This document shows positions 24,829 to 63,767 of a DNA stretch of 64,000 nucleotides, piece after piece. Position numbers and translations under genes: made by a program. Each line of letters opens with the position of its first letter. The stretch's first letter is position 1. The DNA comes from Nocardia sputorum (GTDB taxonomy: Bacteria; Actinomycetota; Actinomycetes; Mycobacteriales; Mycobacteriaceae): positions 4,030,001 through 4,094,000 of the forward strand of contig NZ_AP026978.1 in assembly GCF_027924405.1 (NCBI RefSeq), given 5' to 3'. Under the pieces are notes generated by a model that searched no databases, had not been told where the DNA came from, and worked only from the letters and a program-made list of their open reading frames with translations.

Positions 24829-26550
24829 TCAGAACAGGAAATAGCGCTGCGCCATGGGCAATTCGGCAGCTGGTTGTTCGCGCCAGACCTCGCCGTCGAT
24901 GCGGACGGTGAAGGTGTCCGGGTCGACCTCGATGCGCGGCATGGCGTCGTTGTGCGGCAGATCCGTCTTCGTCACGCCCCGCACGTTGCGGACCGGCACC
25001 AGCCTGCGCCGCACCCGCAGCCGGTCGGCGAGGCCGTCCTCGATCGCCTGCTCGGAGACGAAATGCAGCGAGGTGGCGGCGGCGGTCGCCGGGGCGGCGC
25101 CGAACATGGGGCGCGGTAGCACCGGCTGCGGTGTCGGGATGGAGGCGTTGGCGTCGCCCATCGCGGCCCAGGCGATCGCGCCGCCCTTGAGCACGGCGTG
25201 CGGGCGAACGCCGAAGAACGCGGGCTCCCACAGCACCAGATCGGCGAGCTTGCCCACTTCGACCGAACCGATCTCGTGGTCCAGGCCGTGCGCGATAGCC
25301 GGGCAGATGGTGTATTTCGCGACGTACCGCCGCACCCGTGCGTTGTCGGCGGCGCCGTCGCCCGGCAGGGCGCCGCGGCGGCGCTTCATCACGTGCGCGG
25401 TCTGCCAGGTGCGCAGTACGACCTCACCGATGCGGCCCATGGCCTGCGAGTCGCTGCCGATCATCGAGATGGCGCCCAGATCGTGCAGCAGGTCCTCGGC
25501 CGCGATGGTGGACGGGCGGATGCGGCTCTCGGCGAAGGCCAGGTCCTCGGGGATCGACGCGCTCAGGTGGTGGCACACCATGAGCATGTCCAGGTGCTCG
25601 TCGAGCGTGTTGATCGTGTGCGGGCGAGTCGGGTTGGTCGAGCTGGGCAGCACGTTGGGATGGGCGGCGACGGTGATGATGTCGGGCGCGTGCCCGCCGC
25701 CCGCGCCCTCGGTGTGGTAGGCGTGGATGCCGCGCCCGGCGATCGCCGCGAGGGTGTCCTCGACGAAACCCGCCTCGTTCAAGGTGTCCGAGTGCAGCGC
25801 GACCTGGACCCCGGCCGCGTCGGCCACGGTGAGGCAGGCATCGATCGCGGCCGGTGTGGAGCCCCAATCCTCGTGCAACTTGAATCCCGCCGCCCCGGCT
25901 CGCAATTGCTCCCACATGGCCTCGGCGCTGACGGTGTTGCCCTTGCCGAGCAGCACGATGTTCACCGGCCAGCCGTCGGTGGCCTCGAGCATCCGCGCCA
26001 GATGCCACGCGCCGGGCGTCACGGTGGTCGCCTTGCTGCCCTCGGCCGGGCCGGTGCCCCCGCCGATGAGGGTGGTGATGCCGCCGCCGAGCGCCTCCTC
26101 CAGGAGCTGCGGGCAGATGAAGTGCACGTGGCAGTCGATCGCGCCCGCGGTGAGGATGCGGCCGTTGCCCGCGATGATCTCGGTGGACGGGCCGACGACG
26201 AGATCGGGGTGCACCCCGGTCATGGTGTCGGGATTGCCCGCCTTGCCGATCGCGCTGATCCGTCCGTCACGAATACCCACGTCCGCCTTGACGATTCCCC
26301 AATGGTCGACGATCACCACGCCCGTGATCACGGTGTCGGGAGCGCCTTCGGCGCGCGTCGCCCGGGATTGGCCCATCGATTCGCGCAGCACCTTGCCACC
26401 GCCGAACACGGCCTCGTCGCCCGCGCGCCCCGGTCCCCCGCTGCGGTCCTCGGTGATCTCGATCAGCAGATCGGTGTCCGCCAATCGAATCCGGTCGCCC
26501 GTCGTCGGCCCGAACAGTTCGGCGTACCGGGCCCGGCTCAGCTCACTCAT
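24829..26550 (-). CDS. ureC: Urease subunit alpha
   Basis: A 573-residue catalytic subunit that hydrolyses urea to ammonia and carbamate at a di-nickel centre. Visible motifs are HVHFICP (nickel His pair), FKLHEDWG (carbamylated Lys), [13 protein letters not shown] and MVCHHL (catalytic His region). Length is typical. The ATG at 26550 follows GGAGG. Last gene of ureA-ureB-ureC; the accessory genes ureF, ureG and ureD are not in this window. Confidence 0.97.
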
Positions 26551-27337: not shown

Positions 27338-27784
27338 TCAGGAACGATGGGGCAGATTCTGCAAGCGCACCTGGCCGCGGGCCACGGTGCGGTTCTGCTC
27401 GTCGGTGATGACGACCTGCCACAGCTGCTGCAGTCTGCCCCGGTGCAGCGGCGTCGCCTCGCCCGACAGCGTGCCCTCGCGCACCGCGCGCAGGAAATCG
27501 GTGTTGTTGTTCACGCCGACCACCGTGCCCTGGTCGCCGAACCAGATGCCGCCTGCGATGCTGGCGAGCGTCTCGATGACGGTGCAGTACACACCGCCGT
27601 TCTGGATGCCCGCGGGCTGGTAGAGATGCGGTTTGACGACCCACTCGCCGCGCACGCGGTCGGGGCTCAGCTCGGTGTAGCGCAGGCCGATCAGGTCGGC
27701 GAAGGTGCCTTCGCTGTAGGCGTTCATCTGCTCCGGCGTGACGCCCGCCAGCGAGCCGAACCGCTGCGTTTCCTGCTGTGTCAT
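27338..27784 (-). CDS. PaaI/hotdog-fold thioesterase
   Basis: A 148-residue hotdog-fold protein of the PaaI type. The active-site segment [15 protein letters not shown] (about 60-75) has the usual Asn-Gly-Gly; [13 protein letters not shown] follows. Predicted to hydrolyse an acyl-CoA. Equivalent to the gene preceding ureA in M. tuberculosis (Rv1847, from memory). Confidence 0.88.
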
Positions 27785-28911: not shown

Positions 28912-29008
28912 GGAACAGAGCGGCGGGCCCCACCGGAGGTGGAGCCCGCCGCGGCACGGGATCGGGGGTCACCGCAGCCCTCGGGACTCTCGCGCGATCC
29001 GTACGCCG
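28912..29008 (-). ncRNA. Candidate iron-regulated small RNA
   Basis: A promoter with an embedded iron box (29014-29043) points leftward. The predicted start is about 29007 and the first strong hairpin closes at 28920, giving a transcript of about 95 nt. It contains C-rich single-strand segments (GGTGACCCCCGATCCC), and the hairpin apex includes CCACCTCC, complementary to a Shine-Dalgarno sequence. No good ORF fits; a GTG at 28972 opens in the carbonic anhydrase frame but must cross the hairpin. Mycobacteria have an IdeR-controlled sRNA (MrsI), so a functional analogue is plausible. This is inference. Confidence 0.4.
28920..28952 (-). terminator. Strong terminator-type hairpin
   Basis: GCGGCGGGC (28920-28928) and CCACC (28930-28934) pair with GGTGG (28938-28942) and GCCCGCCGC (28944-28952), leaving a single C/A mismatch and a 3-nt loop. 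It would end transcripts from the FhuF-like gene and from the internal iron-box promoter. Confidence 0.65.
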
Positions 29009-29013
29009 AGATA

Positions 29014-29043
29014 AGTATAGGTCAGGCTTACCTAACTAAGCAA
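29014..29043 (-). promoter_or_regulatory. Iron-box promoter at the 3' end of the FhuF-like gene
   Basis: Reading the minus strand: TTGCTT (29043-29038), an 18-nt spacer, TATACT (29019-29014). The spacer and -10 carry a DtxR/IdeR box (29017-29035) matching TTAGGTTAGGCTAACCTAA at 16 of 19 positions. It overlaps the last codons and TAA stop of the FhuF-like gene. 23 of 30 bases match the promoter at 29804-29833. Confidence 0.65.
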
Positions 29044-29735
29044 GATCCCGACCGTCGCACGGGGAGCCCGCGCTCGGCCATCGCCGCCAGCAACGCCTGG
29101 CCGCGCCGCGCGCCGGTCGCCGAATCGGTTCGCGCGAGGTCGGGCACGTAAGTCGAAGCGCCCGCGACCGATTCGCCCACGAGGGACCAGAACCGCCGGG
29201 CACTCAGACCGGAGCAGCGGGCCAAGCTCTGCTGGACGACCGTCAGCGCGGACTCGCAGCGATGCGCGAGCCAGACGTACATCGCTTCCGGGCACGGCAA
29301 GGCGACCACACCCCGTCCACCGGCCAGCGGATCCCCGTCGACCACGCGAATCGTCGTGTCCGACAGGCCCGCCCAGTCGATCCCGCCGTCGTTGTCGGTA
29401 TGGATCCAAAGGTTCTCCAAGCCCGGATCCCAGGCCCGCCCCTCCGCGACGAGCAGCGCGACCACGCGTCCGACGATCGCGTGGATCAGCGCGGTGGCAA
29501 CGACTTCCGCCGCGATATCGGCGCTGATCATCTCCGCGGCGTGCCGCCGGTACATGAGTTCGACGCGTCCCTCGCGCACGCCGTCGGCCAGTCGCCACCA
29601 GCGCCGCTTGCCCTGCTCCGCCATCGACGCCACGGCGTAGACCCGCGGATGTTCCGGTTGCAGCGCGCGAAGCCGGGCACAGGCGCGTCCGAACGCCGTC
29701 GGCGAGCGATGTGGCGTGGTGATGAGCTCGGTCAT
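29028..29735 (-). CDS. FhuF-like ferric siderophore reductase family protein, apparently C-terminally short
   Basis: A 235-residue protein. The central region (LWIHTDNDGGIDWAGLSD) and C-terminal helices (RRGQALLAAMAERGLPVRRSGSC) resemble FhuF-like proteins, which reduce ferric siderophores with a [2Fe-2S] cluster held by four C-terminal cysteines (C-C-x10-C-x2-C). Here the protein stops at SGSCLVR, with only one of those cysteines, exactly where an iron-box promoter begins. So either the reductase activity is lost or the family assignment is looser than I think. The ATG at 29735 follows GAGGAGG. Divergent from the siderophore importer and iron-regulated. Confidence 0.6.
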   Translation of the reverse strand: MTELITTPHRSPTAFGRACARLRALQPEHPRVYAVASMAEQGKRRWWRLADGVREGRVELMYRRHAAEMISADIAAEVVATALIHAIVGRVVALLVAEGRAWDPGLENLWIHTDNDGGIDWAGLSDTTIRVVDGDPLAGGRGVVALPCPEAMYVWLAHRCESALTVVQQSLARCSGLSARRFWSLVGESVAGASTYVPDLARTDSATGARRGQALLAAMAERGLPVRRSGSCLVR

Positions 29736-29803
29736 CGAACCTCCTCGGGGATCGGCTCCGTCGCGCGGCGCGGCGGACACTCGGCCATGCCCGTCTGTAC
29801 CGA

Positions 29804-29833
29804 AAGATAGGTTAGGCTTACCAGACCTAGCAA
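29804..29833 (-). promoter_or_regulatory. Iron-box promoter between FhuF-like gene and siderophore importer
   Basis: On the minus strand TTGCTA (29833-29828), 18 nt, TATCTT (29809-29804), with an IdeR/DtxR box at 29807-29825 (15 of 19 matches). It drives the FhuF-like gene; the same box lies 41 bp before the importer's GTG and so can also control the plus-strand operon. Confidence 0.7.
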
Positions 29834-32968: not shown

Positions 32969-33367
32969 ATGGCAGGTCTTGGTGAACTCGAGAAAGCGGT
33001 CATGGACCAGTTGTGGTCGGCCGACGAACCACAAACGGTCCGGCAGGTGCACGAGGCTCTCGCCGCACGCCGCGAGCTCGCGTACACCACGGTGATGACC
33101 GTGCTGCAACGCCTCGCGAAGAAGAACCTGGTGGTGCAGCGCCGCGACGACCGCGCGCACCGTTACGCGCCCGTGCACACCCGCGACGAACTCGTCGCCA
33201 GCCTGATGGTCGACGCGCTGCAACAGGCCGACGCGGCGGGCAGCCGCGCCGCCGCGCTGGTGCACTTCGTGGAGCAGGTCGGCAAGGACGAGGCTGCCGC
33301 CCTGCGCGAAGCACTCGCTAAGCTCGAAGCTACCGAGGACGAGGACTCGGCGCCGCCGCCGCAGTAG
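32969..33367 (+). CDS. blaI: BlaI/MecI/CopY-family transcriptional repressor
   Basis: A 132-residue protein with the penicillinase-repressor winged helix (LGELEKAVMDQLW; TTVMTVLQRLAKKNLVVQRR) and a C-terminal dimerisation helix that contains the family cleavage region. Represses its own operon through the upstream inverted repeat and is released when cleaved after BlaR1-type signalling. A blaR-like peptidase gene follows 43 bp downstream. No beta-lactamase gene is in the window, so its targets lie elsewhere. Confidence 0.92.
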   Translation: MAGLGELEKAVMDQLWSADEPQTVRQVHEALAARRELAYTTVMTVLQRLAKKNLVVQRRDDRAHRYAPVHTRDELVASLMVDALQQADAAGSRAAALVHFVEQVGKDEAAALREALAKLEATEDEDSAPPPQ

Positions 33368-63469: not shown

Positions 63470-63672
63470 CTCCCCCTCTGTCGTGGCGCCTGAGAGATTC
63501 GGGTGCCGCGACCGGTGGCCGAGACCCTTTCCCCATGGGCGGGCAGCTCGAAGCCACCGCTTTCCAGAGGCGCCGAAGCCCGCACGGTCCTTTTGCCTGA
63601 GAGATTGACGGGGAGGTGCTGCTCCTTCGGCGCTCGGGCTCTTTTCGAGACCGAGACTCTCCCGCACGGCGG
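63470..63672 (-). promoter_or_regulatory. Tandem glycine riboswitch upstream of gcvP
   Basis: On the minus strand, two aptamer signatures occur in sequence: GTGCGGGAGAG ... GCCGAAGGAGCAGC ... AATCTCTCAGGCAAAAGGACC for the first, then TCTGGAAAGCG ... GGGGAAAGGGTCTCGGCC ... AATCTCTCAGGCGCC ... ACAGAGGGGG for the second. The order and repeated motif are diagnostic of the two-aptamer glycine riboswitch. It should switch gcvP on when glycine is plentiful. Confidence 0.93.
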
Positions 63673-63767
63673 CGACGCACCGTCAGTTTATGCCGACGCC
63701 ACGCCGCAGCGCGCCACGGGACCCCGCCCGCGCCGTGTTGTTCTGGTCACTCGAGCGACCAGCGCCG

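Follow-up and report, generated by a model that had tools for sequence, protein, structure and literature searches.

A conserved Nocardia small RNA, very probably the ortholog of mycobacterial MrsI, whose invariant loop matches a hairpin in aconitase leaders

The window, that is, the whole stretch of 64,000 nucleotides of Nocardia sputorum DNA that was analysed, carries a FhuF-like gene, a 4HBT thioesterase gene, a BlaI-like repressor gene and urease genes, with genes for FecCD transport and carbonic anhydrase interposed in the interval between BlaI and the thioesterase. The segment studied here begins at the 3′ end of the FhuF-like gene and reads on the minus strand (Table 1). Against PF06276 the FhuF-like protein scored 22.6 bits, under the Pfam cut-off of 25.2. 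Homologs of the BlaI-like repressor flank the putative small RNA (sRNA) in the loci of relatives.

Table 1. Coordinates of the sRNA, its promoter and neighbouring genes in the window
Feature	Position	Strand	Basis
Promoter TTGCTT-N18-TATACT	29014..29043	-	sequence; aligned over 90 Nocardia loci
Iron box (IdeR-type operator), overlapping spacer and -10	29017..29035	-	motif comparison with what we take to be the consensus
Putative sRNA, about 95 nt, probable MrsI ortholog, both ends inferred	28913..29007	-	conservation, covariation, covariance model
5′ domain: helix P1 (29000-28995 with 28964-28959) around helix P2 and loop	28959..29000	-	covariation
Invariant 7-nt loop AGGGCUG, putative seed	28975..28981	-	alignment of Nocardia and other-genus loci
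Terminator-like 3′ hairpin, 15 pairs, variable apex	28920..28952	-	fold; double changes in 12 of 15 pairs
FhuF-like gene, directly upstream; promoter overlaps its 3′ end	29028..29780	-	PF06276, E = 1.7e-4
4HBT thioesterase gene, positioned like Rv1847 (MrsI's neighbour)	27338..27784	-	PF03061; synteny
BlaI-like repressor gene, counterpart of the gene on MrsI's other side	32969..33367	+	PF03965 (Penicillinase_R), E = 1e-28

The promoter was found as described in the original prediction, with TTGCTT at 29043-29038, an 18-base spacer at 29037-29020 and TATACT at 29019-29014, so that a transcript would be expected to start near 29007; its resemblance to the promoter of the FhuF-like gene (23 of 30 bases) was also exactly as claimed. 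The iron box said to lie within the spacer and -10 element proved real. It spans 19 bases (29035-29017) and differs at three positions from what we take to be the IdeR-box consensus, the sequence used for all mismatch counts given here. In the 64-kb window there were two sites with five or fewer mismatches, one here and the other in front of FhuF/FecCD (29807-29825); five shuffles of the window by single bases, each read on one strand, gave none. A box with at most five mismatches was present in 89 of 90 Nocardia loci, with all 270 control stretches at eight or more mismatches. Scanning named genomes of Mycobacterium, Gordonia, Williamsia and relatives with a pattern yielded at least 117 further loci, and among the 117 in the matches listed such a box was found in 114 of the 116 that were testable, with 96 controls at seven or more mismatches.

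The GC hairpin predicted downstream of the promoter is present (arms 28952-28938 and 28934-28920, 3-nt loop), 55-87 nt past the expected start and without a clear U-run. Folding of the 97-nt RNA gave z = -2.6; among 200 shuffles, 2 were equally stable or more so. The proposal that the apex of this hairpin, CCACCTCC, acts as an anti-Shine-Dalgarno seed was rejected, since the terminator apex is not conserved and belongs to the parts of the RNA that vary most; the invariant element is another loop, AGGGCUG (28981-28975). Rfam gave weak matches only to the sRNA, none of them at the gathering score of its family. Elsewhere in the window, an Rfam match to 5′ ureB sRNA lies at 26094-26388 (plus strand), antisense inside the urease alpha gene; the same match was seen at three other loci (L123, L127, L140), and it is therefore probably due to the conserved coding sequence of urease and not to an RNA gene. 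A glycine riboswitch (RF00504, 65 bits) lies at 63575-63674 on the minus strand.

Similarity search with a 181-base query matched all 148 Nocardia genomes at E ≤ 1, and 145 of them significantly. The weak three (G015, G032 and G055) are assemblies of 910, 400 and 1340 contigs, respectively, and nothing convincing was found in them with the covariance model either. Across the 90 Nocardia loci fetched (30 from the search, 60 picked from the rest of the list), conservation extends from the -35 region as far as the terminator hairpin, where it ends. GAGGGCTGC (28982-28974) was found in 90 of 90 of these loci, which had been retrieved by similarity to a query containing it, and in all 20 loci fetched from other genera. 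The segment is kept genus-wide by sequence, and its structure covaries, as set out below.

Covariation was analysed in a MAFFT alignment (A1) of 73 sequences, obtained from the 90 Nocardia loci after a 95% redundancy cut and omission of one locus with a degraded terminator (L052). A structure consisting of P1, P2 with the 7-nt loop, and the terminator was paired in 96.4% of cells, with double changes in 19 of 27 pairs; none of 500 shuffles reached the observed values and all slid controls were far lower. Taken alone, P2 showed 24 cells with double changes (0 of 500 shuffles), distributed over three such pairs, a number reached by 97 of 500 shuffles. At its middle inner position C-G, G-C, U-A and A-U pairs all occur; the pair is mostly C-G in Nocardia but mostly U-A in the other genera seen. 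The minimum-energy fold of the window's own RNA differs from the conserved one, pairing the loop away at -18.2 kcal/mol where the conserved 5′ domain comes to -12.9 kcal/mol, and most loop bases are predicted to be unpaired with a probability of about 0.5. The rival hairpin of that fold is 95.5% pairable in columns that hardly vary and cannot show covariation, and the sRNA may therefore be a two-state RNA with two alternative folds. In the locus left out of the alignment (L052, genome G034) the 5′ domain and iron box are kept and the terminator hairpin is degraded; a locus of another genus (L468, G346) looks similar.

Beyond Nocardia, the covariance model (R1) matched 231 of 301 genomes of the family at E ≤ 0.1, 224 of the 231 below 1e-4, in 23 of 31 genera. 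Two of the weak matches (G199 and G200), which make up genera g3 and g4 in this tally, lack the loop and were for that reason taken as genomes without the RNA; these matches look false. Two genomes of genus g8 (G154 and G183) gave no match in the family run at E ≤ 0.1, yet have weak matches with loop, box and neighbours. Several Mycobacterium genomes gave no match to R1. In one genome the RNA occurs twice, with about 17 kb between the copies (L068 and L069, G129:C64). When the search was extended to 348 genomes of the order, 96 matched at E ≤ 0.1, all those outside the family weakly (E of 4e-4 or worse); among 15 weak extra-family loci that were fetched, 13 were without GAGGGCTGC and two had it outside any fitting context.

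In mycobacteria, MrsI (ncRv11846) lies between blaI and rv1847 and has an IdeR site, as far as the part of PMC8628891 that was available tells, and it is induced in low iron according to the accessible part of PMC7029489. The available part of PMC11188477 describes an RNA of 100 nt with a 7-nt apical loop and a 6-8-nt seed that targets bfrA, fprA and hypF, and the description in the available part of PMC12101431 is much alike (6-nt seed, 7-nt apical loop). Synteny was examined by tblastn, with eight proteins of the window sought up to 4 kb from the RNA in each named locus. Among the 117 in the matches listed, the nearest upstream gene was FhuF or BlaI and the nearest downstream gene the thioesterase in 104 (FhuF with BlaI behind it in 61, BlaI in 37 and FhuF in six); in the other 13 one side was cut by the end of the stretch. 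The order in M. wolinskyi (L243), where the core of the sRNA is present, is BlaI-FhuF-RNA-thioesterase-UreA-UreC.

The Nocardia segment therefore shares with MrsI the iron box in the promoter, a length of about 100 nt (with ends placed by inference), the blaI and Rv1847-type thioesterase flanks, with extra genes between, and the terminator-like 3′ hairpin; the 7-nt apical loop with its seed corresponds to AGGGCUG in the fold that covariation supports, whereas the minimum-energy fold of the window RNA is another one. It departs from MrsI in the FecCD and carbonic anhydrase genes of the interval, although FecCD is also found there in several other genera. Since position, operator and architecture agree, and with M. 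tuberculosis MrsI known here by its published description, the RNA of this segment is very probably orthologous to MrsI of mycobacteria. The original prediction of an IdeR-regulated sRNA comparable with MrsI is thus supported by genus-wide conservation, covariation, the iron box and synteny; transcription and IdeR binding are presumed. Among iron-responsive sRNAs of other bacteria, RyhB and PrrF are under Fur rather than IdeR. With FsrA and IsrR they resemble the RNA described here in being iron-repressed, iron-sparing sRNAs with aconitase among their targets, and share no sequence or synteny among themselves, as far as the available part of PMC9410917 goes. As far as the literature was searched, the sRNA is new for Nocardia and of a known kind.

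Three other accounts of the segment were weighed. It could be a 5′ leader under iron control that belongs to the gene downstream (carbonic anhydrase in the window, thioesterase elsewhere), with the hairpin as attenuator. Such a leader would fit an RNA directed towards the downstream gene and a hairpin without a clear U-run, and in the part of PMC11188477 that was available MrsI itself starts about 100 nt before Rv1847. We nevertheless consider it improbable, given that the downstream neighbour varies between the window (carbonic anhydrase) and the named loci among the matches listed (thioesterase), that conservation stops at the hairpin and that the loop complement is found in distant genes. 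Even less probable is a gene for a small iron-controlled peptide, although an SD-like GAGGG precedes the GTG at 28972, which opens a long frame. This GTG is present in 54 of 90 Nocardia loci, and the lengths of the 54 frames diverge widely (26 shorter than 40 aa, 27 longer, one without a stop in the stretch); furthermore, the double changes track helices and not codons. A leader peptide was rejected on the grounds that its start codon is not conserved, and the earlier statement that nothing convincing is encoded here stands. Finally, the segment gives a weak Rfam match of 28.6 bits to the 6C RNA (RF01066, B11 family), likewise a hairpin-rich actinobacterial sRNA. The gathering score of that family is 47 bits, the conserved loop AGGGCUG is not C-rich and the Nocardia sRNA has none of the C-rich loops, and this identity was rejected as having next to no probability.

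With an ortholog of MrsI as the preferred reading, the complement of the invariant loop, CAGCCC, was sought in the leaders of iron-protein genes. In Mycobacterium it occurs in 23 of 30 bfr leaders (30 loci of 48 matches over the cut-off), as against a mean of 3.7 for 30 letter permutations, none of which was higher, and in ten of these leaders it lies in a hairpin loop with a stem of at least five pairs. The gene bfrA is a published target of MrsI. Nocardia differs in this respect, bfr not being a visible target: CAGCCC was found in 1 of 24 leaders, and bfr was rejected as a target in this genus, where iron storage, suggested earlier for target prediction, does not look like a target as far as bfr goes. 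Nocardia ferritin-like genes (L282-L287) seem, by eye only, to have an iron-box-like sequence in their leaders. Likewise, sdhC was rejected as a Nocardia target, with CAGCCC in 0 of 29 leaders (L424 and L436, both without the site, are cut by contig ends). For hypF in Mycobacterium the signal was weak, at 6 of 30 leaders against a permutation mean of 1.8 with start codons placed inexactly. A genome-wide scan of ten Nocardia genomes for CAGCCCT followed by a Shine-Dalgarno sequence and ATG showed no enrichment, giving 43 matches as against 43 for the reversed pattern.

The aconitase gene (acn) gave a different picture. CAGCCC was found in 27 of 27 Nocardia acn leaders when these were read to -220 (25 of 27 on first reading), the set comprising 27 of 30 loci with L389, L390 and L403 left out as partial or as another copy; in L381 the motif lies just beyond -200, and in L388, on a cut contig, it has a 4-pair stem. 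In the genome of the window it is presented in the loop of a hairpin, GCCGGC-ACAGCCCC-GCCGGT, about 43 nt before the start codon. The stem has at least five pairs in 21 of the 27 Nocardia leaders and four pairs in the other six (L383, L384, L388, L392, L394 and L404). Outside Nocardia, an acn leader hairpin of at least five pairs presenting CAGCCC was found in 52 of 75 genomes, G181 and G215 having been dropped beforehand for want of a usable acn start; in the permutation control AGCCCC, which overlaps CAGCCC by a shift, reached 27 and no other permutation exceeded 6. An alignment of such hairpins (A3) held 57 of 59 distinct hairpins (L379 and L398 out) from 71 of 112 leaders. CAGCCC is invariant in its rows and the stem shows double changes, in counts that lean towards the hairpin because the rows were chosen for forming it.

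The acn hairpin also tracks the RNA. Of the 75 genomes, 55 have the RNA, and the hairpin occurs in 49 of these, leaving six without a hairpin of five pairs, as against 3 of the 20 without the RNA (Fisher p = 3e-9, shared descent ignored). With the two g8 genomes, G154 and G183, moved to the RNA-bearing group, the counts were 49 of 57 and 3 of 18 (p = 1e-7, shared descent likewise ignored). By genus, outside Nocardia, the hairpin was present in 19 of 20 genera with the RNA, g7 being the exception, and in 3 of 9 without it (g15, g25 and g31); in g8, added later to the RNA-bearing genera, it has four pairs. The three genomes with the hairpin in which no sRNA was found, laxer filters included (G161, G171 and G177, the first of them 66% complete), reflect either a diverged RNA, an assembly gap or another function of the hairpin.

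Aconitase is not new as a target of MrsI, since the part of PMC9410917 available counts MrsI among its iron-sparing sRNAs, all of which target aconitase mRNA. In the accessible part of PMC2975660, iron limitation of a cattle strain of M. avium paratuberculosis raised the aconitase transcript and lowered the protein, small RNAs being suspected; this divergence is consistent with post-transcriptional control of aconitase. A literature search that covered listings and, for the papers cited here, parts of the text turned up neither the acn leader hairpin nor loop-loop pairing by MrsI, and no account of an MrsI in Nocardia. In the available parts of PMC11188477 and PMC8470358 the word "kissing" refers to other RNAs, and that of PMC10449499 had nothing further on targets.

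Taking together the conserved structure, the operator, the synteny, the complementarity and the co-occurrence, we put at roughly 0.86 the probability that the segment encodes an IdeR-controlled, trans-acting sRNA, the ortholog of MrsI, which pairs through its invariant loop with target leaders, that of aconitase being the best supported in Nocardia. With enough iron, IdeR would sit on the box and block the promoter; as iron falls, an RNA of about 95 nt would be made, ending at the GC hairpin. Its covarying 5′ domain would display the loop AGGGCUG, which would pair over at least six bases (GGGCUG with CAGCCC) with the leaders of target mRNAs, predicted as a free duplex to form 6 bp at -11.6 kcal/mol, and this pairing would lower the synthesis of iron-rich proteins. 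Aconitase mRNA would be the best-supported target in Nocardia and most of the relatives examined, with bfrA in addition in Mycobacterium. Judged from the sequences, the likeliest mechanism is that the sRNA and acn mRNA pair loop to loop.

An IdeR-controlled sRNA could also exist beside an acn hairpin that serves another purpose, such as leader stability or a protein site, with the loop match a coincidence. The three genomes with hairpin and no detected RNA would suit this, as would the other iron-protein genes that have no site in Nocardia and the fact that co-occurrence of RNA and hairpin was counted without correction for descent. Set against it are the double changes in the stem around an invariant CAGCCC (in rows selected for the hairpin), the presence of the hairpin following that of the RNA across genera, and the same motif in the leaders of bfrA, a published target; we regard a coincidence as rather unlikely. 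As to the pairing itself, we lean towards the view that MrsI and aconitase mRNA form a kissing recognition pair kept over much of the family, in some 20 genera, while the stems of both loops have drifted and other targets such as bfrA have been gained or lost by lineage.

The findings widen the range of an iron-sparing sRNA from mycobacteria to Nocardia and further genera of the family, and provide it with a covariation-supported structure, a plausible seed and, in the aconitase leader, a conserved target site open to direct testing. The match between loop and acn leader suggests how these bacteria save iron. If true, a conserved loop-loop pair would make the evolution of targets traceable, and could explain why aconitase protein falls despite a rise in its transcript in one iron-starved mycobacterium, as reported in the available part of PMC2975660. 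An ordinary-looking gap between genes would thus hold a well-conserved regulatory RNA whose way of recognising its targets can be tested and may be new.
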